A stretch of DNA of 46,181 bases from a virus. Positions 1,199-44,967 of the stretch are shown here, piece by piece (position 1 is the stretch's first letter; each line of letters begins with the position of its first letter). The position numbers were made by a program, and so were the translations under genes. The stretch is from IMG/VR virus record IMGVR_UViG_3300023219_000039, positions 1 to 46,181 of that record. One strand, written 5' to 3'. The notes under the pieces are model-generated. The model was not told the origin of the DNA, ran no database searches, and worked only from the letters and a program-made list of their open reading frames with translations.

Positions 1199-1420
1199 AT
1201 GGCCAAAGCTAGCCCCTTTACAGTTGAGGCGTACTCTGCCGGAATGGCTGTGCTGTACCTTAACAAGTACCTAAGACACCCGACAGCCACAGAGTGTAGG
1301 TGCGTGTTAGCACAGCATCAAGTTGAGGGCGGGATAGAGTTTAAGATGGGTAACTTTGACAGCGTGAGGAACCCACCTATACACACGACGGCACTATTCC
1401 AACAGATATTTGGGGATTAA
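1199..1420 (+). CDS. Small tail-motif family protein (PFxxExYS subgroup), 73 aa
   Basis: First clear member of the family of tiny paralogues. Its N-terminus (SPFTVEAYSAGMAVLYL) matches the genes at 1634 and 3394, and more loosely the one at 1423. Its end (TTALFQQIFGD) fits the family tail, hydrophobic-xx-LL-xx-[VI]F. GGGGAA lies nine bases before the ATG. Function unknown. No signal peptide or membrane segment is visible, so it is expected in the cytoplasm. Confidence 0.6.
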   Translation: MAKASPFTVEAYSAGMAVLYLNKYLRHPTATECRCVLAQHQVEGGIEFKMGNFDSVRNPPIHTTALFQQIFGD

Positions 1421-1422
1421 CC

Positions 1423-1629
1423 GTGGCTAAACAAAGGCCCTTTGATGTGGACATACGTATAGAAGAGCAGAGTTCTATTGACCTAGTTCTAAAGAAGCAA
1501 CACGCCGTTTACCTCATGCCAAATAGAGCCCAAGTCTTAAATATATTTGAGCACAGGCTACCAGTGGGAACAAAGCAACTAGCGTGCAACCTACAAGCTC
1601 TGCTCGATGCCAGCTTAGGAAAGGAGTAA
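1423..1629 (+). CDS. Small tail-motif family protein, 68 aa, GTG start
   Basis: Starts with GTG at 1423, two bases after the preceding stop, with GGGGA seven bases upstream. The N-terminus RPFDVDIRIE and the later VYL segment align loosely with its neighbours at 1199 and 1634. The tail CNLQALLDASLGKE keeps the hydrophobic spacing but has lost the terminal VF. Function unknown. It looks like a diverged tandem copy in a three-gene run. Confidence 0.5.
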   Translation: MAKQRPFDVDIRIEEQSSIDLVLKKQHAVYLMPNRAQVLNIFEHRLPVGTKQLACNLQALLDASLGKE

Positions 1630-1633
1630 CACA

Positions 1634-1849
1634 GTGCCCGCACCTAAACCATTTGACATTGAGCCTTATTCATCGCGTCTAGCCATGCTATATCTAAGGC
1701 TTGGCACGGACCCGCACGCTCGCGTGGACTGTGTTCTTTACCATACGCCAGGGGGCGGAGTTACCCGCTTCTGCACCCACTCTTATGACGGCATGGACAG
1801 GCGGGCAACGAACATATTGACCCTGCTTAACGAGGTAGTAAGCACATGA
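1634..1849 (+). CDS. Small tail-motif family protein (PFxxExYS subgroup), 71 aa, GTG start
   Basis: The GTG at 1634 has AAGGAG eight bases upstream, inside the end of the previous gene. KPFDIEPYSSRLAMLYL is close to the gene at 1199 (SPFTVEAYSAGMAVLYL), and the tail is TNILTLLNEVVST. The middle holds a beta-like VDCVLYH segment shared in pattern with 1199 (CRCVLAQH). The stop overlaps the next start as ATGA. Function unknown. Confidence 0.6.
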   Translation: MPAPKPFDIEPYSSRLAMLYLRLGTDPHARVDCVLYHTPGGGVTRFCTHSYDGMDRRATNILTLLNEVVST

Positions 1850-2013
1850 CAGCACCTATCATCATGGGCGAGCGTATCGCCAGCCAAGAACTGCTTGAGA
1901 CTGTTCAATACTTGAACGAGGCAGTCTTACGTAACAGCAATGAGCGGGGCGCCGTGCTTAGGTGCGCACGCTTACGCCTGGATAGATTAGAAGAGGAGAT
2001 GATAGATGCATAG
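1846..2013 (+). CDS. Small helical hypothetical protein, 55 aa
   Basis: Begins in an ATGA overlap with the preceding gene and ends overlapping the next start by eight bases. The sequence is strongly helical (ELLETVQYLNEAVLRNSNE, then RLRLDRLEEE), suggesting a helical hairpin. No family is recognised. Tight overlaps on both sides support it as expressed. Confidence 0.5.
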   Translation: MTAPIIMGERIASQELLETVQYLNEAVLRNSNERGAVLRCARLRLDRLEEEMIDA

Positions 2014-2245
2014 ATGCGGACATTGCAAAGAGGATTACAATAAGCATGGCTATCCTTTCACGTGCCTAGGCCCTAACTTGCTGGAATACTACGGGAAGAA
2101 CCAACCACCCGACCAGCAAGAGGATGACTGGCCGGATCCACGCATGATATGTCGCACATGCGGCAATAAATACAGCCCCACCTATGACAGGGATCACGCC
2201 TTGGTGTTGTGGCCGGAGGAAGACTGTTGCCCGATGTGCATATGA
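2006..2245 (+). CDS. Zinc-ribbon protein, 79 aa
   Basis: Contains paired metal-binding knuckles: CGHC at residues 4-7, CRTC at about 49-52, and a terminal CCPMC. This is consistent with one or two zinc ribbons. AGAGGAGAT lies upstream of the ATG in the previous gene. Zinc ribbons of this size in phages are usually nucleic-acid or protein adaptors. The exact role is unknown. Confidence 0.55.
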   Translation: MHRCGHCKEDYNKHGYPFTCLGPNLLEYYGKNQPPDQQEDDWPDPRMICRTCGNKYSPTYDRDHALVLWPEEDCCPMCI

Positions 2246-2260
2246 AAAAGGAGTAGGACT

Positions 2261-2473
2261 ATGAAAACCACAGTAGGACAGCTAAGAGCTGCCTTGTACG
2301 GGCTACCTGACGACCTACCAGTACAGTTTGATCCAATCACCGAGGCTTGGCTGGGCACCATGAAACCTATGCGAGCAAAAGAGTTTTGTTTCTATGATGG
2401 GAACGGAAACTTGACACAACCTGACGGCGAGGGCGCCGAGTTACACATATATCTGTATGAGGACAGACGTTGA
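2261..2473 (+). CDS. Small conserved-type phage protein, 70 aa
   Basis: Strong ribosome binding site AAGGAG before the ATG at 2261. The N-terminus (TVGQLRAALYGLPDDLPVQF) is of a kind often seen in small phage proteins: a short helix, then the strand-forming LPDDxPV segment. The rest is predicted beta, ending ELHIYLYEDRR. Function unknown. Its TGA overlaps a TTG start of a membrane peptide. Confidence 0.55.
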   Translation: MKTTVGQLRAALYGLPDDLPVQFDPITEAWLGTMKPMRAKEFCFYDGNGNLTQPDGEGAELHIYLYEDRR

Positions 2474-2541
2474 CCCCAGGTCTAGCAACACTGATACTGG
2501 TGGTCCTTGTTCTGCTATTCATGTATGATGGACCACGCTAA
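2470..2541 (+). CDS. 23-aa membrane peptide, TTG start
   Basis: TTG at 2470 overlaps the preceding TGA (TTGA). The encoded peptide is nearly all hydrophobic (GLATLILVVLVLLFMYDG), a single membrane span with a short polar end. Very short, so coding status is uncertain. The neighbouring gene at 2557 has the same character, which favours a pair of small membrane peptides. Confidence 0.3.
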   Translation: MTPGLATLILVVLVLLFMYDGPR

Positions 2542-2556
2542 CAGAAAGGTAACAAC

Positions 2557-2637
2557 ATGCTCTTGCTCTTATTCTTGACACTGGCCGCACTTGTCTATAC
2601 CGTGGCTAGTCTAATCAAATACCTATCGGGAGAATAA
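2557..2637 (+). CDS. 26-aa membrane peptide
   Basis: ATG at 2557 after GAAAGG. The product is one hydrophobic helix (LLLLFLTLAALVYTVASLIK) with a polar C-terminus. Function unknown. The following gene starts after GGGAGAATAAC, using this gene's last codons as its ribosome binding site. Confidence 0.4.
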   Translation: MLLLLFLTLAALVYTVASLIKYLSGE

Positions 2638-2638
2638 C

Positions 2639-3004
2639 ATGAACATTCAAATCAACCTGCCCAGGCATTTCTCTAACGGGGATGAGGTGCCCTACAAATA
2701 TCTTGACCGGCTCATTGCTAGCGTCGTGGCTGCCACTGGTAGGGTGTCCGTCATTGAGGCACGGAGTACAGCAATTAGCGGTAAGACCTTCATCAGTGAG
2801 CCTGTGCTGCTAATACAGGCCACCTATAACCTATCTGCACCAAAGGACTGGACCCCGCTGTTTAACAAGGTCAGACACATAGCGACGGTAGCGGCTGGCG
2901 TACTCAAGCAAGAGAATGTGTATCTACTCTTCGACGGTCTACATTATCTTGTCGAACAAGACGATGCTGTCCGTGCTGACGTGCGAGCTATCGTCAATGG
3001 ATAG
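2639..3004 (+). CDS. Hypothetical protein, 121 aa
   Basis: Soluble mixed alpha/beta protein starting MNIQINLPRHF, with ribosome binding site GGGAG. Strand-like segments (PVLLIQATYNL, NVYLLFDGLHYLV) alternate with helices. No motif or family is recognised. It overlaps the next start by eight bases, so it is part of the same coupled run of early genes. Confidence 0.55.
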   Translation: MNIQINLPRHFSNGDEVPYKYLDRLIASVVAATGRVSVIEARSTAISGKTFISEPVLLIQATYNLSAPKDWTPLFNKVRHIATVAAGVLKQENVYLLFDGLHYLVEQDDAVRADVRAIVNG

Positions 3005-3200
3005 GGCGCGCCGCATAGTCGTTGACGTGTGGGGAGGGGAACAAAATGCCGAACACGTGGCCCGCTACGTCACCACACCTGAACAAGCCTTGTTGCTGGC
3101 GTACATGGAGGTGAAGAGTGGCTTCATCATAAGCATGGCAGCAAGCATAGCCGATGAGAGGCTCGCTAGCTTTGACAAGCGGGCTGGCACTAGACACTGA
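2997..3200 (+). CDS. Small hypothetical protein, 67 aa
   Basis: I choose the ATG at 2997 (MDRARRIVVDVWGG) over the in-frame 2916 because it overlaps the preceding stop by only a few bases. The product looks like a strand followed by two helices (TTPEQALLLAYMEV). Function unknown. Confidence 0.45.
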   Translation: MDRARRIVVDVWGGEQNAEHVARYVTTPEQALLLAYMEVKSGFIISMAASIADERLASFDKRAGTRH

Positions 3201-3211
3201 AAGGAAAGACA

Positions 3212-3397
3212 ATGGAATTATTGCATACATTATTCTTACCTGTCGCTGTACTCGTCATGGCTATCATGGCCTATCGTGACAGGGTAGAGAGTGATCGCCG
3301 GCACATGGCAACCATAACCCTGCTCACTGCACACAATGAGGTGTTGCTGCATCTGAGTGAGGGTAAGGCACCAGGACAGCGGACCACTAAGACGTGA
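3212..3397 (+). CDS. Small membrane-anchored protein, 61 aa
   Basis: Strong upstream site (AAAGGAAAGACA then ATG). Residues 3-20 (LLHTLFLPVAVLVMAIMA) form one membrane segment, followed by a charged, probably cytoplasmic helix and a basic end. Function unknown. The stop overlaps the next gene's start codons (GTGATG). Confidence 0.5.
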   Translation: MELLHTLFLPVAVLVMAIMAYRDRVESDRRHMATITLLTAHNEVLLHLSEGKAPGQRTTKT

Positions 3398-3612
3398 TGA
3401 GTAGTAGTCCAGCACAGCCCCTTTGGATAGAACCTTCCAGCCCTACGTTTGCTTTGCTATATCTGTGTAAAGCACCAAGGGAAGCACAGGTTAGGTGTGT
3501 ATTTGTCGCAGACATGGAGCCAAAGAGCTTCAGTCTTGGTGAGTTCAAATCTATGGATGGTCCAGGCATATGCTTAGCTGACACCTTGCAGCAGGTGTTC
3601 GAAGAATGTTAA
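3394..3612 (+). CDS. Small tail-motif family protein (PFxxExYS subgroup), 72 aa
   Basis: Starts at GTG 3394 or, more simply, ATG 3397. QPLWIEPSSPTFALLYL matches the genes at 1199 and 1634, and the segment QVRCVFVADM matches their CVL strand. The tail is LADTLQQVFEEC. The codons for QQVF read CAGCAGGTGTTC and supply AGGTG as ribosome binding site for the next gene. Function unknown. Confidence 0.6.
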   Translation: MMSSSPAQPLWIEPSSPTFALLYLCKAPREAQVRCVFVADMEPKSFSLGEFKSMDGPGICLADTLQQVFEEC

Positions 3613-3773
3613 AGGTACTAGCAGAGGAGACTTGGGTACAGCTATGCCTAGTAGAAGCTGGTAACACTACAGCATGGATAGTTTGCATGCCAGGTAATGT
3701 ACACTGGTGCCACTTCGTAGACTTAGACGAAATATGCCTGTATCGTCAACTAGATAACATATTTAACGAGTAA
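3606..3773 (+). CDS. Small tail-motif family protein, 55 aa
   Basis: The ATG at 3606 lies within the end of the preceding gene. The short protein (MLKVLAEETWVQLCLVEAG) is beta-rich with five cysteines, four tryptophans and an HWCHF segment. It ends LYRQLDNIFNE, which fits the family tail (hxxLxxIF). Base composition is more AT-rich than the neighbours. Function unknown. Confidence 0.5.
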   Translation: MLKVLAEETWVQLCLVEAGNTTAWIVCMPGNVHWCHFVDLDEICLYRQLDNIFNE

Positions 3774-3855
3774 TTGCATTACTCTTAGTGTTTAATCTAA
3801 TCAAAAAGTATAAACTAACATATTTTGAACCAAAAGTCAAGCAGAAAGTTACATC
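3774..3855 (+). promoter_or_regulatory. AT-rich gap, possible promoter region
   Basis: An 82-base gap, one of the few breaks in the otherwise overlapping rightward block, and clearly more AT-rich than its surroundings. It holds TTGCAT at 3774-3779 and several AT-rich -10-like sequences, but none has convincing spacing. AGAAAGTTACATC precedes the next ATG. A promoter feeding the VWA/MoxR and replication genes is plausible, not shown. Confidence 0.25.
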
Positions 3856-4071
3856 ATGACAACATCAACAAAGATTTGTGCACCTGTAGGTACTGCTTGG
3901 CACGCTGGTAGAGGTAAGTATGGAGGTATGAGACTAACCTCCACACAAAGGATTGTCTTTATGTCAAGCTCCGACGACCGTATACGGTACAAACAGAGGT
4001 CCGACGACCCAGGCTCTGAGAATAAATGCTTGACAGACATAATAGAAATCTTTAATAAGGTAGTACTATGA
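3856..4071 (+). CDS. Small tail-motif family protein, 71 aa (tandem pair with next gene)
   Basis: Clear paralogue of the following gene. YGGMRLTSTQRIVF corresponds to IGGLRLTSETRLVH there, and a shared DPGS precedes the tail LTDIIEIFNKVVL. The C-terminal codons contain AATAAGGTAGTACT before the next ATG, serving as its ribosome binding site. Function unknown. No transmembrane or signal sequence. Confidence 0.6.
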   Translation: MTTSTKICAPVGTAWHAGRGKYGGMRLTSTQRIVFMSSSDDRIRYKQRSDDPGSENKCLTDIIEIFNKVVL

Positions 4072-4265
4072 CCCTAAACCCCGGAGACATATGGCCGCTA
4101 GGAGATACGCTTATCGGCGGGCTAAGATTAACTAGTGAAACTAGGCTTGTACATAATGAGCATTCTTTATATGGGTTCAGGTTAGAGCGCAGTGTCATCG
4201 ATCCGGGATCTAAAGGCAAGCCCGTAATAAATATCCTTGACATACTAGAGGAGCTTGTGTTATGA
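4068..4265 (+). CDS. Small tail-motif family protein, 65 aa (tandem pair with previous gene)
   Basis: Starts in an ATGA overlap. Shares GG[ML]RLTS, a central arginine-rich strand (FRLERS) and DPGS with the upstream gene, then the tail INILDILEELVL. This is the most obvious recent duplication in the family. GAGGAGC in the tail codons is the ribosome binding site for the gene at 4262. Function unknown. Confidence 0.6.
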   Translation: MTLNPGDIWPLGDTLIGGLRLTSETRLVHNEHSLYGFRLERSVIDPGSKGKPVINILDILEELVL

Positions 4266-4465
4266 AGAGAGAGAGAAGCGCAATATTTGATATAGAACAT
4301 GACAAGAATGTATATTTTGTATTGGCAGATATAGACAGTCATGGCAGGATACCACAAATTTGTTTAGACTCAGACAATAGAGATATAGAATATATATGTC
4401 TATCTGGTGCAGCAGCATATGTATGTAACACCAAACAAATGCTGAACGAAATTTTTGGAGGCTAG
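4262..4465 (+). CDS. Small tail-motif family protein, 67 aa, AT-rich
   Basis: Starts in an ATGA overlap (MKRERSAIFDIEHD). Predicted beta strands (VYFVLADI, IEYICLSG) are followed by the tail NTKQMLNEIFGG. Its sequence is visibly AT-rich compared with the VWA gene that follows, which may mean a different origin. GGAGG in the tail and stop region is the ribosome binding site of the next gene. Function unknown. Confidence 0.55.
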   Translation: MKRERSAIFDIEHDKNVYFVLADIDSHGRIPQICLDSDNRDIEYICLSGAAAYVCNTKQMLNEIFGG

Positions 4466-4467
4466 CT

Positions 4468-6087
4468 ATGACCGGAGTTAATCTACACTACCAAGCAGCC
4501 GAGACCTTTGCTCGTGCGATGGCAAGCAACGTCAACCTGACAGTACAGGTGGACGACACCATCACAACAGCAGCAACCGATGGCCGGCGCCTGCTTATCC
4601 GTCCTTATGAGCCTCACTGGCAGCCAGGGTCAGACATGGATCAGATATGGTACGGGTTGGTAGCACATGAGTGCTTCCATAACCTGGAGGAAAATAGAGC
4701 GGACCTTCACCTTGTCAACAAGGATGAACGGTTACAGAACCCACTGTTCCATGTGGTCCACAACGTAACCATTGACCACAACATTGAGCGTAGGGCTAAG
4801 GGCAGGTGGCAGGGTGCTGACATGTGGATACGACGCGCACGCACTACCTTCAATCAATTAGACCGGGCACCCGTGCCCAAGGACAAGGTTCAGAAGTCAG
4901 CTACCTGTAAGCTTATGGCTCTGTCTAAGCTGGACGCTGCGTGCCGCAATGAGTGGCAAGGCACAGCCTTGCTAGTGGAGCTAGATGAACAGTCCACCCC
5001 TTGGTACGATAAGATCAAACACTTGCGGGATGAGTACGAGGCAGTACGTACCGGAGGAAGGGCTAACCTGGACCTGAGCCAGAAGATATACGATCTACTT
5101 GAGCTGAAGGATGAACGTGACAAGTTGAGCGAGGAAGAGCAACGGGCGATAGCTGGTAGCATTGGTACTTTGGATGACCACACCGAAGAGGTGGAAGGCA
5201 AAAAAGTCAAAGGCCGAGACGAGGGTGCTGCCGGTAAGTTCATCGACGGTGAGGGCAACCTAAAGAACACAAAGGCAGAAGCTAACGCTAACCCTGAACC
5301 TGAGTTTCAAAAGACGGGATACAAACCACTAGCAATGACAATTACTAAGCCGAACGGACACGGCGAGTTCGTGTTGGATGGGCTATCAACTCTATCCAAG
5401 GCACTAGTCAAGCGCCTGCAAATATATTCGCGTAAGAAATTCGAGGGGGGTAAGAAACGAGGCAAGCTTAACAGGAAGAGACTGGTGCGAGCCGTATCCC
5501 AAGGTGATCAGCGTGTGTTCCGCCGTAAATACGAGGAGGTGATCAAAGACACAGCCGTACTCTTGTTGGTGGATTGTTCTGGCTCTATGCATGGCAACAA
5601 GTACCAGTACGCAGCAGCTAGTGCTCTGTCTCTCATTGATGTGTTAGACAAGAACCAAATCAGCGTTGGTGCTTATGGCTTCACATATAGTGGCGGGCCT
5701 GTGCATATAGTGTTCAAAGACTTCAATGACAGGGCTCACTTGTCTACTATAGACGGTAAGTTCAACGCCGCAAGCAGTAACCTAAGAGATAACAGCGACG
5801 GCGACAACGTGCTGCATTGTTATCAGATACTGAAAGCCCAACCACAGAAGCGAAAGGTTATGATCGTGCTGTCTGATGGTAGGCCTTGCGCACCTCCTAG
5901 TGGCTGCGGTAGGTGGGCAAAGGACGTGATAAAAAGTGTTGACAACGACAGGCAAGTTGAGCTATACGGTATAGGAATTTGCGACGAACACGTTGAGAAG
6001 CTGTACCGTAACGCTGCGGTGATCAACAACCCAAGAGATTTAGAGCCGGTGTTACTGAACCTGTTAGAAACCATAATCATTAATTGA
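4468..6087 (+). CDS. Metallopeptidase-like / VWA domain protein (CobT-like)
   Basis: 539 residues with strong ribosome binding site TTGGAGG. The N-terminal part carries a zincin-type HExxH motif (H67-E-C-F-H71), as in predicted metal-dependent peptidases of the DUF2201/VWA type. The C-terminal part is a von Willebrand A domain with the metal-binding MIDAS signature DxSxS (D369-C-S-G-S373) and a later VLSDGRP segment. A charged, probably flexible linker (residues about 210-280) joins them. It sits directly upstream of a MoxR-type ATPase, the partner such VWA proteins normally work with in a chaperone-like remodelling complex. N4-like and other phages have comparable pairs. The target in infection is unknown. 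Confidence 0.8.
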   Translation: MTGVNLHYQAAETFARAMASNVNLTVQVDDTITTAATDGRRLLIRPYEPHWQPGSDMDQIWYGLVAHECFHNLEENRADLHLVNKDERLQNPLFHVVHNVTIDHNIERRAKGRWQGADMWIRRARTTFNQLDRAPVPKDKVQKSATCKLMALSKLDAACRNEWQGTALLVELDEQSTPWYDKIKHLRDEYEAVRTGGRANLDLSQKIYDLLELKDERDKLSEEEQRAIAGSIGTLDDHTEEVEGKKVKGRDEGAAGKFIDGEGNLKNTKAEANANPEPEFQKTGYKPLAMTITKPNGHGEFVLDGLSTLSKALVKRLQIYSRKKFEGGKKRGKLNRKRLVRAVSQGDQRVFRRKYEEVIKDTAVLLLVDCSGSMHGNKYQYAAASALSLIDVLDKNQISVGAYGFTYSGGPVHIVFKDFNDRAHLSTIDGKFNAASSNLRDNSDGDNVLHCYQILKAQPQKRKVMIVLSDGRPCAPPSGCGRWAKDVIKSVDNDRQVELYGIGICDEHVEKLYRNAAVINNPRDLEPVLLNLLETIIIN

Positions 6088-6098
6088 GGAGAGAACCA

Positions 6099-7409
6099 AT
6101 GGTAACGTCTACCGAATGGACAGATGGCGACATCTACATTAACTACAGCAGCAACACCCTGGCCTTTGAATGCGAGGACAAGTGCATACTGTACACCAAG
6201 GGAGCTGACGAGTTTGTCATTGAGGACAATGCCGATGCCTTCGCTGCCTTCGTTGCTACTGCTGTACCCATGGAGAACGTAGAGGGTAGTGTTGCGTCCA
6301 TTAAGACCATGCTGCTGAAGATTACCAAGCAGTACGAGGAGGACAAGGACACCACTGAAGAACAGTACCTAGCTATCTGTTCGAAAGAGCTGATGCCTAA
6401 GAACAAAGCAAAAGTCAAGAAACCAAAGGCAACCAAGACAAAGAAAAAGATCACTCGTCGTAAGAAGACACACCAGAAATCCTTTACTGAGATCACAGGT
6501 GCCCAGCACTCGTCGGGCGAGGAGTTTTACTTCACTGTGTTCCAACCCAAGGACTGGCCGGCTGACGTTGCCAAGGATATCCCCGCAATCAACTCAAGCT
6601 TCTACTTTGACGAGGACTATGCCCTTGCTATACTCATCTCGCTTGAAGAGAACGAACCTTTGTTGGCGTATGGTCCTCCTGGCTGTGGCAAGACAGCCAC
6701 TGTTGAGCAAATCTGCGCGAGGGTAGGCCGCCCGCATAGCTTTATCCAGGGCAAGCAGGGCACCGACCCGTCTGACTATGTAGGGTCAGTCCATCTACGG
6801 GGTGGCGACACTAAGTGGGTAGACGGTGAGCTTACCCACGCTGTGCGGCATGGCTATGTGGTACTGTACGATGAGATCTTCAAGTCCAGTCCGCAGACCA
6901 ACATGGTAATACAGACCTTGCTTGATGACAGGCGTGTGTTGCCCTTGGAAGGACACGAGAGCGCACGTTACTTGAAGGCACACGAAAACTTCCGCATGAT
7001 TGGTGCGGATAACATCGCCGGTGATGGCAATCACAGCATGAAGTACTGCGCTGAGCACCAAGACGCATCAACCCTTAACAGGTTCACGATGACAGTCAGC
7101 GTTGACTACCCTTCGCCGAAGATTGAAAAGGAAATCATGCGAGGTATCACGGGTAGGATGAGCGAAGGCCTAGCTGACACACTCTTGACCCTGACCGCCA
7201 TGATACGTGCGTCGTATGATAAGGGTGGTGTGTCCGTAGCGTACAGTGTGCGTACTAACCAAACCCTGGCTAAGTTGTACGGGGGGCTGGGTAGCGTGCC
7301 TATGGCGTTCAAGTTTACCTACCTTAACAAGCTGAGCGATGAGAAGGAACGGCAGGCAGTGTCTAAGATGTTTGCCTCTGCCTTCGCCTCGACTGACGCG
7401 CAACTGTAA
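6099..7409 (+). CDS. MoxR/CobS-like AAA+ ATPase
   Basis: The start is ATG 6099, preceded by TTGAGGAGAGAACCA; the TTG at 6084 is part of that ribosome binding site. The 436-residue protein has an N-terminal domain, a lysine-rich linker (about 102-123), then an AAA+ core with Walker A GPPGCGKT (192-199), Walker B VVLYDE (254-259), a sensor-1 like RMIGADN (about 299-305) and an NRF arginine-finger segment. MoxR-family ATPases work with VWA partners, and the adjacent upstream gene is one. The exact process (replication, host takeover or assembly) is not shown by the sequence. Confidence 0.85.
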   Translation: MVTSTEWTDGDIYINYSSNTLAFECEDKCILYTKGADEFVIEDNADAFAAFVATAVPMENVEGSVASIKTMLLKITKQYEEDKDTTEEQYLAICSKELMPKNKAKVKKPKATKTKKKITRRKKTHQKSFTEITGAQHSSGEEFYFTVFQPKDWPADVAKDIPAINSSFYFDEDYALAILISLEENEPLLAYGPPGCGKTATVEQICARVGRPHSFIQGKQGTDPSDYVGSVHLRGGDTKWVDGELTHAVRHGYVVLYDEIFKSSPQTNMVIQTLLDDRRVLPLEGHESARYLKAHENFRMIGADNIAGDGNHSMKYCAEHQDASTLNRFTMTVSVDYPSPKIEKEIMRGITGRMSEGLADTLLTLTAMIRASYDKGGVSVAYSVRTNQTLAKLYGGLGSVPMAFKFTYLNKLSDEKERQAVSKMFASAFASTDAQL

Positions 7410-7606
7410 TGATTAAGGGAGGATACATCCGACCCGGTGGACGACAATACCTAGGTATATTGATACTATCAAAGGAAGCCTGGGTTGCTCGTTCCACCGA
7501 AGGAAAGTTTCTCCTCATACGTTCGCCGACCGCCTCTGGGTGGGGAGGAGGGGATCCTTCCTCCTTCCTGCCCCTTCTTTCTCTCTTCAATGAGGTGTTC
7601 AAATGA
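7409..7606 (+). CDS. Small tail-motif family protein, 65 aa
   Basis: The ATG at 7409 overlaps the ATPase stop (TAATG). The body has the strand YLGILILSKEAWVARS, similar to GALVLNRTGWIRS in the next gene. A Gly-rich stretch follows, then the tail LPLLSLFNEVFK, one of the best matches to the consensus. The tail codons read AATGAGGTGTTCAA before the next ATG and provide its ribosome binding site. Function unknown. Confidence 0.6.
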   Translation: MIKGGYIRPGGRQYLGILILSKEAWVARSTEGKFLLIRSPTASGWGGGDPSSFLPLLSLFNEVFK

Positions 7607-7794
7607 GAGCGGGTATGTGTGTGCCACAGCGACCCACGAAAGTAGGTGCGCTGGTTCTTAACCGGACGGGCTGGATTAGATCTGATAAGACTGTTAGAGA
7701 TGTGTTTGAGTTTTGCTCTATGGAGGCTAGCTGGACACGGGAGCATACGACACACGACATATTGCCTCTACTTAATAAGGCGTTTGACCAATGA
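7603..7794 (+). CDS. Small tail-motif family protein, 63 aa
   Basis: Starts in an ATGA overlap. Paralogue of the preceding gene in the strand GALVLNRTGWIRS, then FCSMEASW and the tail HDILPLLNKAFDQ. Function unknown. AATAAGGCG in the tail is a modest ribosome binding site for the next gene. Confidence 0.6.
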   Translation: MRAGMCVPQRPTKVGALVLNRTGWIRSDKTVRDVFEFCSMEASWTREHTTHDILPLLNKAFDQ

Positions 7795-8009
7795 GCACAA
7801 CACGAGCGTTAACAGTAGAGATCGACGGCGACCCTCCATCAGGGTCAAGCTATGCTGCCTTGGTCTTAGGCCCTGGCCAAACAGCGGCGGTTCGGGGTAC
7901 TGAGCCTGATAGTTTGCACGTTCGGGCGTGGTCAATGACAGCGCACCCTATTGGTCCTGTTGTAGACCTAACAAAACTATGGACGGAGGTGTTCAATGGT
8001 AGGCAGTAA
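7791..8009 (+). CDS. Small tail-motif family protein, 72 aa
   Basis: Starts in an ATGA overlap. ALTVEIDGDPP, then the strand YAALVLGPG, then DSLHVRAWSM and the tail VDLTKLWTEVFNG align along their length with the next gene (ALTLELG, ADLIVANG, GGFHIISWEM, HIKDLLQEIFDG). The GAGGTG of the tail codons is the ribosome binding site for the start at 7996. Function unknown. Confidence 0.65.
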   Translation: MSTTRALTVEIDGDPPSGSSYAALVLGPGQTAAVRGTEPDSLHVRAWSMTAHPIGPVVDLTKLWTEVFNGRQ

Positions 8010-8205
8010 AGCTTTAACCCTAGAGCTGGGCAGTGGGGGCCTTGGCCGGGACGCTGATCTGATAGTGGCCAACGGCCACTGTGTTTATCTGGATCCAGAT
8101 GGAGACAGCGGGGGCTTTCATATCATCTCTTGGGAGATGGGCGGAACAGTAAGCGAGCCGCGACCACATATAAAAGATCTCTTACAAGAGATATTCGATG
8201 GCTGA
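7996..8205 (+). CDS. Small tail-motif family protein, 69 aa
   Basis: The ATG at 7996 lies 14 bases inside the preceding gene, just after GAGGTGTTCA. The product is a full-length paralogue of that gene. Conserved features are ALT[VL]E at the start, a central hydrophobic strand, a FHIISWEM strand and the tail KDLLQEIFDG. It ends overlapping the primase start by eight bases, so primase translation is probably coupled to it. Confidence 0.65.
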   Translation: MVGSKALTLELGSGGLGRDADLIVANGHCVYLDPDGDSGGFHIISWEMGGTVSEPRPHIKDLLQEIFDG

Positions 8206-8953
8206 ACGAATACCCCCAGAGATATTGAAAGAGGTAAGGCAGAACTTCCTGCTCGGGGAGGAGAGGCAATTCAAATGCTGCCAGCCACCTAAGCAGAAGT
8301 TATACGTCAAACTCAAGGCTGACGGACAGACAGTACTAGGTCATTGCTTCCACTGTGGTACCAACTACATGTCAAGACTACATAAACCTAAGCGGGTTGC
8401 CAAGGTGGCCAAGGTCAAGCGGAGATATGAGCCACCACCTACTGACCTAGTCCACACGACGCGAGATTGGCCGGCCTTGGGTAAGATGTGGATACATGCG
8501 AGTGGTGTGACCGAAGAGGAGTTAGTCACCCACGGTATAGGGTACAGCCCTAGCACAGAGGCAATCGTGTTCCCCGTACACGGGGGTTGGCAAGAACGGG
8601 TGCTAGTAGGACCACAGAAATACCTAACGCACAGATACAAGGATATATATTTTCACTTGCGTAATGGTCCGACCTGTGTTATCGTCGAGGACGTACTATC
8701 TGCTATCAGGGTAGGTAGATACGCCAGTGCCCACGCGCTGATGGGCCTGCATATACGAGACTGTACTCCCTTGATAGAGTACGACCGCTTCGTCGTGTGG
8801 CTAGACAACGACAACGCCCAGGTGGTAGCGGCAGTAAAGAAGATAGAGGACAGACTAAGCCAGTGGGCTACGGTTACAGTTATCTCTGACACGGACGACC
8901 CAAAGAAACAGACAGAGGAAGGGCTATGGCAAAGTATAAAGCCGGCGATCTAG
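8198..8953 (+). CDS. DNA primase (zinc finger + TOPRIM)
   Basis: 251 residues. An N-terminal zinc-binding module (C27, C28, C50, C53; the last two as CFHC) is followed by a basic linker (PKRVAKVAKVKRR). A TOPRIM core has acidic E164 in VIVEDVLSAI and the D203/D205 pair in WLDNDN. This is the T7 gp4 primase-half layout as a separate protein, expected to make RNA primers for lagging-strand synthesis. The DnaB-like helicase is encoded two small genes downstream, so the primase-helicase function is split. Start chosen from its overlap with the preceding gene. Confidence 0.85.
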   Translation: MAERIPPEILKEVRQNFLLGEERQFKCCQPPKQKLYVKLKADGQTVLGHCFHCGTNYMSRLHKPKRVAKVAKVKRRYEPPPTDLVHTTRDWPALGKMWIHASGVTEEELVTHGIGYSPSTEAIVFPVHGGWQERVLVGPQKYLTHRYKDIYFHLRNGPTCVIVEDVLSAIRVGRYASAHALMGLHIRDCTPLIEYDRFVVWLDNDNAQVVAAVKKIEDRLSQWATVTVISDTDDPKKQTEEGLWQSIKPAI

Positions 8954-9126
8954 CTACAATGATAAGTGATACACCTTTTACTCGGGAAATGTGCTTAGTT
9001 TTTATATCTGACGACGAGCCAGAGAATGCCCACACAATAAACGACAGTATGCGTATAGGGTATTTAAGAAATACATCCTTTGGACCTATAGTTAATGTGT
9101 TACCTGTACTGGAGGGAATATGGTAG
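8926..9126 (+). CDS. Small tail-motif family protein, 66 aa
   Basis: ATG at 8926 inside the end of the primase gene, with GAGGAAGGGCT upstream. The sequence is more AT-rich than the primase. Strand MCLVFISDDE, a central SMRIGYLR and the tail NVLPVLEGIW fit the family, with tryptophan replacing the terminal phenylalanine. GAGGGAAT of the tail serves the next start. Function unknown. Confidence 0.55.
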   Translation: MAKYKAGDLATMISDTPFTREMCLVFISDDEPENAHTINDSMRIGYLRNTSFGPIVNVLPVLEGIW

Positions 9127-9332
9127 ACGAAGTGAAAGCCTTTGTGGTCAATGTGGAAGCGGAAGGCGATGCAGACGTCTACCTTGAATTTATTTTGGAG
9201 GCAAGTACCTCGATAGATTTTACCGGTGAGCCAAGCTCAGATGTATTCTTAGCTGGCCCTAACCGCCCCGGTCTGCCGTTTGCCTGCACATTTAATCTTA
9301 AAGAGACACTGGAGAAACTATGGAAATCCTAA
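9120..9332 (+). CDS. Small tail-motif family protein, 70 aa
   Basis: Starts overlapping the previous gene by seven bases. VKAFVVNVEAEGDADVYLEF and FILEASTS form beta-like segments, and the tail is FNLKETLEKLWKS, again ending in tryptophan. GGAGAAACT in the tail codons is the ribosome binding site of the helicase, whose start lies inside this gene. Function unknown. Confidence 0.55.
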   Translation: MVDEVKAFVVNVEAEGDADVYLEFILEASTSIDFTGEPSSDVFLAGPNRPGLPFACTFNLKETLEKLWKS

Positions 9333-10534
9333 ACATATTAGGTACCAAGGCAGACTACCAAGAGTACAAGCAGTACCTGGCCGGTCTGCCGGTAGAGGCT
9401 ACCACTATCATTCAGGGGCTGGGTAAGTATTACGCTACTCACACTGCGGTAGAGTGGGCCGACTACTCAGCTTGGTTCTTCTCTGTGTACAAGCCCCTGT
9501 TGAAACAGGATCAGCGAAGGGTATACGCTAGGATATTTGACAAGCTGGGTGAGCAACGTCTGACTCCTGAGACTAAGCGAGAGATGCTCAACAACTTCAG
9601 AGCCAGAGAGTACGGAGCTGAGATCGTTGCCATAGGCAGGGAGATGACAGAAGCCGGTGACCTGACCTGTCTCACTGACCTAATGGATACTGTCAACACA
9701 GCACAAGCCGAGCTGCAAAGCTCCTCGTCTATTGAGGACTACTTTGTTACCGATAGTGTTGAGAAGATAGTAGAACAACAGCAAGAGGGAGGGTTGACAT
9801 GGCGCATGAAGTGTGTCGCCAATGCGGTAGGCCCTATCCGTAAGGGCAACTTGATTGTAATAGGCGCCCGACCAGAGACAGGTAAGACCACCTTCATGGC
9901 TAGCGAGGCCACACACATGGCTAAGCAGATACCGGAAGGGCAGCACATCCTGTGGTTCAACAACGAGGAAGAGGGCAAGAGAGTTAAGTCCCGGCTGATA
10001 CAGTCAGCCTTGAACAAGCACATACTGGACCTGCAAGCCTACCCTATGCAGTGCCAAGAAGAATTCGAGAAGGCCTGTGGGAACAAGATCATTATCATAG
10101 ACAAGTCTAACCTTAATGTGTCGGACGTGCAGAAAGTTATTGACAGATACCCTCCTGGTCTGTTAGTCTTCGATCAATTGTGGAAGATATACGGTAAGGG
10201 ACACAGCCACGACGTGACTACCCAAGTAGCATTGTACCAATGGGCACGAGAGATGGCCAAGAAGCACGCACCCGTGTTGACTGTGCACCAAGCTGACTTC
10301 ACAGCGGAGGGCGTAGACTACATAGGCAAGGAAGCCCTGTACCTATCCAAGACAGCAGTGCAAGGGGAGATAGACGTTCAGATCATGTTGGGTAAGAGGA
10401 ACAACGAGGCACCGGAAATGGTGAACAAGAGGTACCTTAGCATTGTCAAGAACAAACTGGGACACCCTTCAGCGCAGAGACACGGTCAATTTGTCGTGTT
10501 CATAGACCCCGAACGGGGACGGTTCAATGATTAA
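9320..10534 (+). CDS. Replicative DNA helicase (DnaB/T7 gp4 helicase-like)
   Basis: 404 residues. The RecA-type core has Walker A GARPETGKTT (182-191), a WFNNEEEGKR segment after it, and Walker B LLVFDQ (D285). The C-terminal region contains the expected SIVKNK segment close to its end. It should form a ring that unwinds DNA at the replication fork together with the separate primase. The N-terminal 150 residues are helical, as for DnaB-family N-domains, and lack a primase domain. GGAGAAACT precedes the ATG within the upstream small gene. Confidence 0.85.
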   Translation: MEILNILGTKADYQEYKQYLAGLPVEATTIIQGLGKYYATHTAVEWADYSAWFFSVYKPLLKQDQRRVYARIFDKLGEQRLTPETKREMLNNFRAREYGAEIVAIGREMTEAGDLTCLTDLMDTVNTAQAELQSSSSIEDYFVTDSVEKIVEQQQEGGLTWRMKCVANAVGPIRKGNLIVIGARPETGKTTFMASEATHMAKQIPEGQHILWFNNEEEGKRVKSRLIQSALNKHILDLQAYPMQCQEEFEKACGNKIIIIDKSNLNVSDVQKVIDRYPPGLLVFDQLWKIYGKGHSHDVTTQVALYQWAREMAKKHAPVLTVHQADFTAEGVDYIGKEALYLSKTAVQGEIDVQIMLGKRNNEAPEMVNKRYLSIVKNKLGHPSAQRHGQFVVFIDPERGRFND

Positions 10535-10733
10535 ATTGTACGTTGCTCCTATGACGCATGATCGTACTGAGGGCTACGCCATCTTAGGAGGAACGGAACA
10601 CTCGTCATTTGAACTGTTGGCCGGCTGTCTGCATAGGTATGGGATGCCGATAACTGCCACGTGGCAAGCGCAAAGTCCTGACCGTAAAGGTATTACTCTC
10701 ACTTCAATGTTTAAAAAGACATTTAGACAATGA
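10527..10733 (+). CDS. Small tail-motif family protein (M[IS]xLYV subgroup), 68 aa
   Basis: The ATG at 10527 overlaps the helicase end, after GGGGACGG. It begins MIKLYVAPMT, like MIELYVSSAA at 10927 and MSVYVSARTN at 12817. The strand EGYAILGG and tail ITLTSMFKKTFRQ follow. Function unknown. Part of a three-gene run between helicase and polymerase. Confidence 0.6.
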   Translation: MIKLYVAPMTHDRTEGYAILGGTEHSSFELLAGCLHRYGMPITATWQAQSPDRKGITLTSMFKKTFRQ

Positions 10734-10927
10734 TTAGGGCCTGTGTAGCAACTAGCTTGGGTTCGACGGGATGTATGTTGGGCGATCACACAAGTACTGA
10801 CACAGTAGTTTTGGGAACAACACAAATCTTTTTGGATAAGCGGCACTTTGAGGATAAGTGGCAATATAGTCAGCCGGGTAATGCTGTTATAGATCTGACG
10901 TCAGTGTTTGAGAAGGTGATACGATAA
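10730..10927 (+). CDS. Small tail-motif family protein, 65 aa
   Basis: Starts in an ATGA overlap (MIRACVATSLG). The body has the strand CMLGDHTSTDTVVLG and the tail VIDLTSVFEKVIR. GAGAAGGTG in the tail precedes the next start. Function unknown. Confidence 0.6.
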   Translation: MIRACVATSLGSTGCMLGDHTSTDTVVLGTTQIFLDKRHFEDKWQYSQPGNAVIDLTSVFEKVIR

Positions 10928-11121
10928 TGATTGAGCTGTATGTTTCGTCTGCTGCTAAAACAGCAAGGGCTGGCGCCTTGACGCTAGCAGAGACCGCTTA
11001 TGCTTATCTAGGCGATGGCCGATTACATGTGTACGAGATAGACGTGACGAAAAGTTGGCGGGCAGGTAGTGGTACTATGAAGATCTGTTTAAAATCTAAG
11101 CTGGAGAAGGTCTTTGACTAA
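10927..11121 (+). CDS. Small tail-motif family protein (M[IS]xLYV subgroup), 64 aa
   Basis: The ATG overlaps the previous stop (TAATG). MIELYVSSA is followed by ARAGALTLAETAYAYL, then GRLHVYEID and the tail ICLKSKLEKVFD. The pattern GALxL, xLHVxxxD, tail is the clearest statement of the family fold. GGAGAAGG in the tail codons is the ribosome binding site of the polymerase N-terminal gene. Function unknown. Confidence 0.6.
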   Translation: MIELYVSSAAKTARAGALTLAETAYAYLGDGRLHVYEIDVTKSWRAGSGTMKICLKSKLEKVFD

Positions 11122-12259
11122 GATAGCAACGATAGATCTTGAGACTACGGTTAAGAACGTAGGCGAAGAGAGCATTGGTTCGTTCAAGGCTAACCCTTTC
11201 TGCGAGGACAACTGGATTGTGTTGGCCGGCATTAAAAAATTGCGGGGGGACTGTCTGATCATGGACCAACCCAAGCAATTTGTCACCTTCAATGAGTGTG
11301 CCTTTCTCATTGGGCAGAACATTAAGTTTGACCTGCACTATCTGTTTCGCTATGTCCCCGGCTTCCATAAGGGCTTCCATAGAGTACAGATATGGGACGT
11401 AATGATTGTCGAATATCTCTTGACAGGGCAGGACAGTAAGTATATAAACCTGGACACACTGGCCCTGAAATACGGAGGTACCGTAAAGCCCGACGCAATC
11501 AAAGAGTACTGGGACGCAGGTATCCAGACAGAGGACATACCTGAAGATGAGCTGGAAGAATACTTGATTGGTGACCTAGAGAACACAGAGATCGTGTACC
11601 TAGGCCAGCTAGAGGAAGCCAAACGTCTGCACATGCTGCCCCTACTCAAGACACAGATGCGTATGCTTCAGGTGTGTGCTGACATGGAGTACGAAGGCAT
11701 GGTGTTTGACCGGCGAGGCAGCCTGGAAGCCTATGTAGATCAGAGCGCCTTGCGGGATGAACTTGTTGAGAAGCTGACTAATATCATGCAGTCCCACGAC
11801 CCGGCCCTTGACAACCCAGGTAGTAACCAACAGGTGGCACTGTGGTTGTTCGGAGGTACCATCAAGGAAGTGATAGACGTACCAGTGATCAACGCTGACG
11901 GTACAGAATACAGATACAAGTCAGGTAAGCGGAAGGGGCAAGTGAAGACCAAGAAGACAGACAGTTTCAGGGAGACATCTGGCATATATGAACCACAACC
12001 CGAGTGGGCTATCGCTACTGGCTGGAGTGTAGACAACAGCATCCTGAAGAAGTTGAAGGTCAAAGAAGACGATGCCATTGACCAACTACTACGGCTACGC
12101 GAACTGGGTAAGGATCTGGACACCTACTACAAGGGCCTAGCTGAGCTTACCCACGCTGACGGATTGATACACGGGACACTAAACAATTGCAGTACCAACA
12201 CAGGAAGGCTATCGAGTTCGAAGCCCAACCTCCAAAACATATCAGGAAAGGAAAGATAG
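11114..12259 (+). CDS. DNA polymerase I-type, N-terminal half (3'-5' exonuclease plus thumb/early palm)
   Basis: 381 residues from a TTG start at 11114, which lies three bases after GGAGAAGGTC. It carries the proofreading exonuclease motifs: D8-L-E10 (Exo I), N69-I-K-F-D73 (Exo II) and Y150-LIG-D154 (Exo III). The protein continues through the thumb to the family A TGRLSSSKPNLQNI segment, and stops with TAG five residues later (SGKER). Motifs A, B and C are absent and are found in the gene at 12989. Together the two proteins total 670 residues, close to T7 gp5 (704). The two halves presumably associate. No intein or intron signature is seen at the break. Confidence 0.85.
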   Translation: MTKIATIDLETTVKNVGEESIGSFKANPFCEDNWIVLAGIKKLRGDCLIMDQPKQFVTFNECAFLIGQNIKFDLHYLFRYVPGFHKGFHRVQIWDVMIVEYLLTGQDSKYINLDTLALKYGGTVKPDAIKEYWDAGIQTEDIPEDELEEYLIGDLENTEIVYLGQLEEAKRLHMLPLLKTQMRMLQVCADMEYEGMVFDRRGSLEAYVDQSALRDELVEKLTNIMQSHDPALDNPGSNQQVALWLFGGTIKEVIDVPVINADGTEYRYKSGKRKGQVKTKKTDSFRETSGIYEPQPEWAIATGWSVDNSILKKLKVKEDDAIDQLLRLRELGKDLDTYYKGLAELTHADGLIHGTLNNCSTNTGRLSSSKPNLQNISGKER

Positions 12260-12459
12260 TGCTCGACATAGAACACCAGAGCGGGAGAGAAGAAAGACTT
12301 ATTGAGTTGGAGCGAGATGTCTGGTCTATCACTACGCTAATCGACAACGTGTTACGTGAACCTGACCTGATATCAGAAGAGGACAGGCTTAGTCTCTTCG
12401 TACTTGGGGTACAGTTAACCGAAGAGTTTGGTGACGACGTTGAATGTGACGGAGAGTAG
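12259..12459 (+). CDS. Small acidic helical protein inside the split polymerase, 66 aa
   Basis: I place the start at GTG 12259, overlapping the polymerase TAG (TAGTG) with AGGAAAGGA just upstream. The in-frame ATG at 12187 would overlap the polymerase by 73 bases. The product is acidic and helical (RLIELERDVWSITTLIDNVL, then LFVLGVQLTEEFGDD). It does not carry the family tail and is not a recognisable endonuclease. Function unknown. First gene of the insert that separates the polymerase halves. Confidence 0.5.
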   Translation: MLDIEHQSGREERLIELERDVWSITTLIDNVLREPDLISEEDRLSLFVLGVQLTEEFGDDVECDGE

Positions 12460-12461
12460 GC

Positions 12462-12647
12462 ATGGACTGTCTAAGCGTATATCGCCCAGAAATAAACATA
12501 TTCTCTTCTTTTGTGCTGACACCCAAGGTGAGGGTAAGGATCACCGGGACAAGTGAAGGTGGGATAGCAGCAGTGCCCCCGCCGCACATTGAGTTTAAAT
12601 GTAAAGGCATGGACATTGAGCCTCTTCTGCGTGAGGTGTTCGGGTGA
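12462..12647 (+). CDS. Small tail-motif family protein inside the split polymerase, 61 aa
   Basis: ATG at 12462 after CGGAGAGTAGGC. Beta-rich body (KVRVRITGTSEGG, HIEFKCKGM) and a strong tail match, IEPLLREVFG. The tail codons GTGAGGTGTTC provide the next gene's ribosome binding site, and the stop overlaps its GTG start (GTGA). Function unknown. Confidence 0.6.
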   Translation: MDCLSVYRPEINIFSSFVLTPKVRVRITGTSEGGIAAVPPPHIEFKCKGMDIEPLLREVFG

Positions 12648-12820
12648 GTATATATGTGTGTCCACCCGCAGATGATTGGATCTGTTGTATGCAGTTATCT
12701 TCAAAGAAAGATATTGAACTAGATGTTGATGACATTATTCTATTTGATGATTCTGAAGACTGGTATGAGGTTGAACTTAAAACAAATATTAAAGATATTC
12801 TGAATGGTGTGTTCAAATGA
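12644..12820 (+). CDS. Small tail-motif family protein inside the split polymerase, 58 aa, GTG start
   Basis: GTG at 12644 in a GTGA overlap. Starts MSIYVCPPADDW and ends NIKDILNGVFK, so both ends fit the family. The centre is acidic (DIELDVDDIILFDDSEDW). The sequence is strikingly AT-rich compared with both polymerase halves. The stop overlaps the next ATG (ATGA). Function unknown. Confidence 0.55.
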   Translation: MSIYVCPPADDWICCMQLSSKKDIELDVDDIILFDDSEDWYEVELKTNIKDILNGVFK

Positions 12821-13056
12821 GTGTCTATGTAAGCGCCAGGACAAACATGAGATTTGCGACAGTCAGTGTAGGTTCTGGAGGTGTAGTGTTAACAAGTGCT
12901 GGCGATTTGCATGTGGTGGACAGTGGTTTTCTTGCGAACGCAAAACGTAAAAAGACTGTGATAACAGGCGTATTAGAGGAGGTATTCAATGACGATCAAG
13001 AGCTATTTCGGGTCAAGGTACGGTTCGGACGGGGTATTATTGCAGGCGGACTTTAG
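12817..13056 (+). CDS. Small tail-motif family protein overlapping the polymerase start, 79 aa
   Basis: Starts in an ATGA overlap (MSVYVSARTN), with VVLTSAGDLHVVDS and the tail VITGVLEEVFNDDQ. Unlike other members the frame does not stop after the tail. It continues 68 bases into the polymerase C-terminal gene, adding about 20 extra residues. GAGGAGG in the tail codons is the ribosome binding site of that gene. The extension may be an accident of insertion. Function unknown. Confidence 0.55.
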   Translation: MSVYVSARTNMRFATVSVGSGGVVLTSAGDLHVVDSGFLANAKRKKTVITGVLEEVFNDDQELFRVKVRFGRGIIAGGL

Positions 13057-13858
13057 CCAGCTTGAGGTTATCGTTCTCGCTTGGCTTAGCCAGGACCCCC
13101 TGCTTATAGAGGACATCGTATCAGGGATGGACTTGCACTGTCAATCCGCTGCCTTCATCACAGGCAAGGACTATCAATACATATACGACCAAGTACAGAG
13201 CGGTGATCAGACATGGGTCAACATACGCAAGGCAAGCAAAGCGCCAAGCTTTCAGCTTAGCTACGGGGCAGGGTACAAAGGCATAGCAGCCAAGACTACT
13301 CTGTCAGAGAGCCAAGCAAAGAAGTTCATCACTAACTATTATGACAGGTACACCTGTGTGAAGGAATGGCAAGAGGAACAGATAGCTCTGGTCGCTGGCA
13401 AAGCTGTATACTCTGGACGTATCACCCCCAAGGGGTTCCCATCTATGAAGTCACAGCTAGTGACAGCCACTGGCCGACGTCTCACCTTCCACGAGCAAGA
13501 CACGCCTGACTTTATTAAGGAAGCCACTAACTTCTCGCCGACCAAGATCAAGAATTACCCAGTGCAGGGCACAGCATACGACATAGTAGCCCTTGCAATT
13601 TCAAGCTTATGGGACCATATAAAAACAGCGGAACTGGAACGAGTACATTTTGTTAACACCATCCACGACAGTGTACTGAAAGATTTACACAAAGATAGCT
13701 TGACAAGCGTGTTGAAATATGTTAGACCTTGTCTTACAAATATCGACGCGCTGATGCAAGACAGATACGGAGTTGAATTCAACCTGCCTATCTCTGTAGA
13801 CATAGAGGTAGGCCCCACTTGGCACAACATGGAGACACTTGATGCAAGGACTTATTGA
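12989..13858 (+). CDS. DNA polymerase I-type, C-terminal half (palm and fingers catalytic motifs)
   Basis: 289 residues carrying the family A catalytic core: motif A ADFSQLE (D21, E26), motif B R80-xxx-K84-xxx-F88-xxx-Y92-G, and motif C H226-D227-S228. It has its own start with GAGGAGG seven bases upstream. The short lead IKSYFGSRYG continues naturally from where the gene at 11114 stops, so the break is a clean split rather than loss of sequence. The tyrosine in motif B is the position that in T7-type enzymes affects dideoxynucleotide use. Confidence 0.88.
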   Translation: MTIKSYFGSRYGSDGVLLQADFSQLEVIVLAWLSQDPLLIEDIVSGMDLHCQSAAFITGKDYQYIYDQVQSGDQTWVNIRKASKAPSFQLSYGAGYKGIAAKTTLSESQAKKFITNYYDRYTCVKEWQEEQIALVAGKAVYSGRITPKGFPSMKSQLVTATGRRLTFHEQDTPDFIKEATNFSPTKIKNYPVQGTAYDIVALAISSLWDHIKTAELERVHFVNTIHDSVLKDLHKDSLTSVLKYVRPCLTNIDALMQDRYGVEFNLPISVDIEVGPTWHNMETLDARTY

Positions 13859-44808: not shown

Positions 44809-44884
44809 TGGTGCCGGTGAGAGGAGTCGAACCCCTGACCTCCTGAGTACAAAACAGGCGCTCTCCCTGCTGAGCTACGCCGGC
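44809..44884 (-). tRNA. tRNA-Thr (anticodon UGU)
   Basis: Read on the minus strand the 76-nt gene folds as a cloverleaf. The 7-bp acceptor stem has one C-A mismatch, the D stem is GCTC/GAGC, and the anticodon loop reads TTTGTAC with anticodon TGT. The T arm has TTCGA. Discriminator A and CCA are encoded. It reads ACA codons. Five bases from the tRNA-Pro gene, in the same late transcript. Confidence 0.85.
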
Positions 44885-44889
44885 ATATT

Positions 44890-44967
44890 TGGTCTAGGTG
44901 GGAGGATTTGAACCTCCGACTTTGGCGCTCCAAACACCCTACTCTGGCCAGACTGAGCTACACCTAG
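44890..44967 (-). tRNA. tRNA-Pro (anticodon UGG)
   Basis: 78-nt gene on the minus strand. Perfect acceptor stem CTAGGTG/CACCTAG, D stem GCTC/GAGT, anticodon loop TTTGGAG with anticodon TGG, T loop TTCAAAT, and encoded CCA. The starting C is the usual first base of bacterial proline tRNAs. One anticodon-stem pair (27-43) is mismatched. Its first four bases overlap the end of the sulfotransferase gene, so processing must release it from that mRNA. Confidence 0.85.

Follow-up and report, generated by a model that had tools for sequence, protein, structure and literature searches.

A family of tiny, fast-diverging paralogues interspersed among the replication genes of a podophage related to Zobellviridae

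Small genes at the replication-gene junctions

The virus record IMGVR_UViG_3300023219_000039, a DNA of 46,181 bases analysed here at its full length (the window), carries within its replication-gene region an array of 20 very small genes whose products end in a similar C-terminal tail. The original prediction, made from the letters alone, had listed these genes. All 20 open reading frames (ORFs), of 55-79 aa, are present on the + strand, and we name them by their start positions. As proposed, they lie in runs of two to four between replication genes. There are seven such runs: 1199-1849 (three genes), 3394-3773 (two), 3856-4465 (three), 7409-8205 (four), 8926-9332 (two), 10527-11121 (three) and 12462-12990 (three). 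The third is followed by a VWA/CobT-like gene (4468-6087) and a MoxR/CobS-like gene (6084-7409), the fourth by a primase gene (8198-8953), the fifth by a DnaB-like helicase gene (9320-10534), and the sixth and seventh by the N-terminal and C-terminal halves of PolA (11114-12259 and 12989-13858), respectively. Runs occur at nearly every replication-gene junction from VWA to PolA and nowhere else in the window.

The array amounts to about 4 kb of the 46-kb record. Most of its members overlap the next gene by 1-14 nt. Isoelectric points range from 4.1 to 10.0 and charges from -9 to +4, and third-position GC is lower and more uneven than in the replication genes.

A shared tail on divergent bodies

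Tails were compared with a 12-column matrix, each protein being scored by the matrix built from the others (jackknife) against 2,000 shuffles of its own sequence. The predicted common tail was borne out: 18 of the 20 tails reached p<0.01, the exceptions being 3606 (p=0.04) and 1423 (p=0.07), which are the weakest members. With the full matrix, the 19 members carrying the tail at their C-terminus scored 12.3-23.4, clearly apart from the best unrelated ORF of the window (7.7). The tail of 12817, which is internal, scored 13.2 in the jackknife after trimming. The neighbouring ORF 968 was rejected as a 21st member (jackknife p=0.40).

Similarity is not confined to the tail. In leave-one-out searches with full-length hidden Markov models (HMMs), each of two alignments placed 12 of 22 members (the 20 plus two from the related locus L004, see below) at the top of some 5,570 ORFs. 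Bodies stripped of their tails ranked, at the median, within the best 5-6% against decoys, a weak but non-random signal, and they were more alike within runs than between runs (p=0.0004), in line with the fast-varying bodies and subgroups first described. Conservation of the tail exceeds that of the body, which nevertheless retains weak whole-domain similarity. Taken together, these sequence comparisons indicate that the 20 genes are one paralogous, lineage-specific and fast-diverging family.

Individual members are described below with their rank by the leave-one-out full-length HMM under the two alignments, separated by a slash. In the first run, 1199 (1199-1420, 73 aa, tail TTALFQQIFGD, rank 1/2) has a jackknife p of 0.001, and the Shine-Dalgarno (SD) sequence of the next gene lies outside its tail motif; the weak member 1423 (1423-1629, 68 aa, tail NLQALLDASLGKE, rank 237/554) is retained for its N-terminal likeness and position; and 1634 (1634-1849, 71 aa, tail NILTLLNEVVST) ranks 2/1. 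The second run comprises 3394 (3394-3612, 72 aa, tail CLADTLQQVFEEC, rank 1/1) and the other weak member, 3606 (3606-3773, 55 aa, tail CLYRQLDNIFNE, rank 193/941), for which no downstream SD is needed. An AT-rich gap of 82 nt (3774-3855) separates 3606 from 3856 and interrupts the run of tiny genes upstream of VWA. The next two genes, 3856 (3856-4071, 71 aa, tail DIIEIFNKVVL) and 4068 (4068-4265, 65 aa, tail NILDILEELVL), both rank 1/1 and are one of the two best pairs, with 36.7% identity (E=4e-10); 4262 (4262-4465, 67 aa, tail NTKQMLNEIFGG, rank 2/1) adjoins the VWA/CobT-like gene.

The fourth run holds 7409 (7409-7606, 65 aa, tail PLLSLFNEVFK, rank 1/7), 7791 (7791-8009, 72 aa, tail DLTKLWTEVFNGRQ, rank 1/5) and 7996 (7996-8205, 69 aa, tail HIKDLLQEIFDG, rank 1/1). 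With them lies 7603 (7603-7794, 63 aa, tail DILPLLNKAFDQ, rank 1/10), whose body without the tail ranks 4/1 of 3,137. A terminator-like hairpin of 16 pairs followed by a T-rich stretch (7538-7573) is found within the coding frame of 7409. In the fifth run, 8926 (8926-9126, 66 aa, tail NVLPVLEGIW) is a member by its tail only (p=0.0015), being missed by the full-length HMM, and 9120 (9120-9332, 70 aa, tail NLKETLEKLWKS) ranks 6/18. The sixth holds the other best pair, 10527 (10527-10733, 68 aa, tail TLTSMFKKTFRQ, rank 12/1) and 10927 (10927-11121, 64 aa, tail CLKSKLEKVFD, rank 1/1), with 34.8% identity (E=3e-6), and between them 10730 (10730-10927, 65 aa, tail DLTSVFEKVIR, rank 1/1).

In the last run, 12462 (12462-12647, 61 aa, tail DIEPLLREVFG, rank 56/50) is a member by its tail and sits where L004 has its two members; it is followed by 12644 (12644-12820, 58 aa, tail NIKDILNGVFK, rank 1/1). 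The tail of 12817 (12817-13056, tail VITGVLEEVFN, rank 7/5) ends at 12990; its frame has no stop there and runs 21 residues (66 nt) further, into the gene for the PolA C-half, up to 13056. The L004 equivalent stops at the PolA start.

AlphaFold2 was run on 10927 together with 16 paralogues and, with another set of 10, on 1634. The first model has strands at 2-7, 14-19, 23-28, 32-36 and 51-54 and a helix at 56-63 (pLDDT 58.7), the second strands at 7-13, 16-22, 30-37 and 44-47 and a helix at 61-69 (pLDDT 65.7). In both, the tail is the C-terminal helix. Rather than unrelated folds, the two subgroups are thus predicted, at low confidence, to share one topology of four strands followed by a C-terminal helix. 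Conserved tail positions comprise a helix-cap-like D/N residue and one hydrophobic face (-8, -5, -4, -1, 0), and no surface position of the tail is conserved. Because these are the positions that are kept, the tail is most likely a structural helix whose hydrophobic face would close the core of its own domain; the docking helix for a shared partner that had been suggested is not supported.

Profile searches of the members in Pfam, PHROGs and NCBIfam gave no meaningful match (best E 0.13-0.28). The best hit of a sequence search in the PDB, the PPR protein 5iww (E 0.0049), was judged to be chance. With the low-confidence models, Foldseek found no match below E=0.6 in the PDB and none below E=0.1 in the PDB plus BFVD, and tblastn of 10927 against 50,697 phage records gave none. 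A non-exhaustive literature search turned up no account of a family of this kind. Since there was no match in PHROGs, Pfam, NCBIfam, PADLOC or the PDB, the results suggest that the family is undescribed in these libraries, as had been supposed.

Related phages and their probable accessory slots

Judged by helicase and PolA, the closest named phages are Zobellviridae (the Vibrio phages ICP2 and VP41s3); judged by terminase, they are a Manatee Spring podovirus and MEP401/402. MEP401 and MEP402 are Zobellviridae with a split DNA polymerase (PMC10580990). As judged by its replication genes, split PolA and terminase, the carrier is a podophage related to Zobellviridae. Downstream of PolA lie exonuclease, endonuclease and ribonucleotide reductase genes, and the opposite strand carries structural genes. 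The split in PolA separates the LSSSKPNLQNI segment from palm motif A (DFSQLE). MEP401 and VP41s3 have a small annotated ORF between their PolA halves, and ICP2 has an HNH gene between PolA parts annotated as a joined CDS (coding sequence). Directly after the N-half in the window, 12259-12459 encodes a small acidic protein, with a likely GTG start at 12259; it is outside the 20-gene family, and the counterpart in L004 shares 49% identity with it over the longer frame.

Relatives were sought with PolA, VWA and helicase, which gave about 270 loci (2.7 Mb including duplicates); the search pattern A3 reached 80 loci, patterns A1 and A2 being too narrow. Single-protein searches for close relatives found none with MoxR and, with PolC, the locus L004 (PolC 73% identical); a scan of a contig collection returned one distant PolA only. 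In L004 the slot between the PolA halves likewise holds members, two in number, whose tails read ISSMLQEIFE and ITNLLDEIFE. They are 17-32% identical to the three window members of that slot, against 71-83% for PolC, exonuclease, endonuclease and exo2 and 49-67% for most other neighbours. By these figures, members diverge much faster than most flanking genes. Apart from L004 and two genes of one contig, L009/L223, nothing in the approximately 270 loci rose above noise. Of the two L009/L223 candidates, one is located upstream of VWA and the other in the primase-helicase slot; their tail scores are 16.7 and 13.0 (noise ceiling 11.6). Profile comparison gave the L009 tail-like genes a probability of 15-19%, and they are weak candidates. 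A profile search of contigs behind terminase relatives found nothing, in a set that had no positive control. No member was detectable in ICP2, MEP401 or L010-L017, which have the same replisome genes.

What relatives carry at these junctions varies. The helicase-PolA slot is empty in MEP401 and ICP2. L206 has separate tandem families in the MoxR-primase, primase-helicase and helicase-PolA slots (2820-3564, 4378-5768 and 7248-8027), L265 has four copies of another tiny family (777-2643), and L015 (529-1316) and L266 (1460-3270) have tandem tiny paralogues of their own. L009 (3094-3351, 3348-3572, 5047-5241, 8243-8440), L011 (6352-6537) and L015 (8334-8570) have in common, in similar slots, another tiny family, which is marked by a C...C..C motif and probably ends in a helix. 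All of these are, like the window family, small paralogues in tandem between replication genes; however, they have fewer copies and usually one slot per family. Profile comparison showed no significant similarity between the window family and the other tandem families. Homology to the cysteine family, suggested by an initial strand with P and a terminal helix in both, was likewise unsupported. Because the same slots are empty in relatives or filled by other small genes, the replication-gene junctions look like sites for accessory genes. The window is the extreme case, with one family in six places.

MEP401/402, VP41s3 and ICP2 resemble the window in the similar order VWA/CobT-like, MoxR/CobS-like (ICP2), primase, helicase and PolA, and MEP401 and VP41s3 also in the small ORF within a split PolA. 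Their small ORFs, however, are unmatched to the window family and none has a one-family array.

Among better-known phages, the SPO1 host-takeover genes and the T4 and T7 early genes are packed, very small genes, many of them non-essential and some encoding inhibitors of host proteins. The likeness lies in the tight packing of such short genes into runs. Those arrays encode mostly unrelated proteins, in contrast to the approximately 20 paralogues of one predicted mini-domain found here among replication genes.

Possible roles of the small proteins

The role we favour, tentatively and short of an even chance, is that of diversified binders directed at host or defence proteins. It is suggested by the accessory position, by the diversity of charge on one scaffold and by a divergence beyond that of most neighbours; and since the slots are empty or differently filled in relatives, the genes would be accessory rather than core parts of replication. 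The family may have expanded by tandem duplication within the places between replication genes, in addition to an older spread between those places. Its products would be early proteins co-expressed with the replication genes, and varied surfaces on one stable scaffold could bind different host or defence proteins and block them. The fuller form of this proposal, in which each of about 20 surface-diversified copies of a 60-residue domain has a different host or defence target and relatives fill the same places with independent tiny-gene repertoires, is more doubtful.

Several observations weigh against such binders. No match to a known anti-defence or host-takeover protein was found, and with PADLOC defence profiles a single member gave a hit, at a non-significant E of 0.041. 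Four genes (1423, 3606, 8926 and 12462) were not recovered by full-length leave-one-out HMMs, and the confidence of the AlphaFold2 models is low. One small neighbour, gene 16841, comes close to the members in its rate of divergence (37% identity to L004). Relaxed constraint, too, is compatible with fast divergence and varied charge, and a place among the replication genes could point instead to a role in replication. We nevertheless place binding of host or defence proteins first, ahead of, in descending order, a replisome role, neutral passengers and translational coupling.

A replisome role, with the tail docking on one shared partner (a phage replication protein, for instance) and the bodies serving as variable parts with an accessory or regulatory task, would account for the better conservation of the tail and for the confinement of the runs to the VWA-PolA junctions. 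It is unlikely: any amphipathic helix that has an N-cap and packs against a core would conserve these tail positions, and the replisome as such does not need the family, since relatives with the same replisome genes show no detectable member. Ranked below it is the idea of neutral passengers, a duplicating moron-like gene spreading between genes with little benefit and under relaxed constraint. High divergence, the lower and uneven third-position GC and near absence from relatives are consistent with this; however, frames, starts and the helix core are intact in about 20 copies in a compact genome, where relaxed constraint should have broken several.

It is improbable that the small frames are mainly translational-coupling elements passing ribosomes to the next replication gene, with a tail shaped by its SD. 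Such coupling would agree with the common start/stop overlaps, with the SD of the next gene overlapping the E-V codons in 10 of the 20 members, and with the terminal W codons of 8926 and 9120, which overlap the ATG of the next gene and of the helicase, respectively. However, relatives join the same replication genes without such frames, and the tail is conserved as protein, not as DNA. At the five core positions of 22 tails, the second codon position is nearly fixed (entropy 0.27-0.87 bits) and the third free, being near random (1.75-1.92 bits). Because, in addition, the hydrophobic pattern (-8, -5, -4) starts upstream of the SD, and IF or VF is kept in members whose SD lies elsewhere or is missing (1199, 3606, 4262, 10527 and L004 506-682), the SD is excluded as the whole cause of the tail. 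Finally, chance or convergence among unrelated small proteins, to which many pairwise identities below 25% and the weak body-only profiles across runs might point, is very improbable, being largely refuted by the jackknife and HMM ranks and opposed by the L004 members and the common predicted topology.

If the small proteins do bind different host or defence proteins, the array, in which one small domain fills this much of the record with its 20 copies, would be a ready panel for finding new inhibitors. The finding that relatives carry tandem tiny families of other kinds in these slots gives a simple rule for where to seek accessory genes in this phage group. Elsewhere in the window, two tRNA genes lie on the minus strand, at 44812-44884 and 44893-44967.

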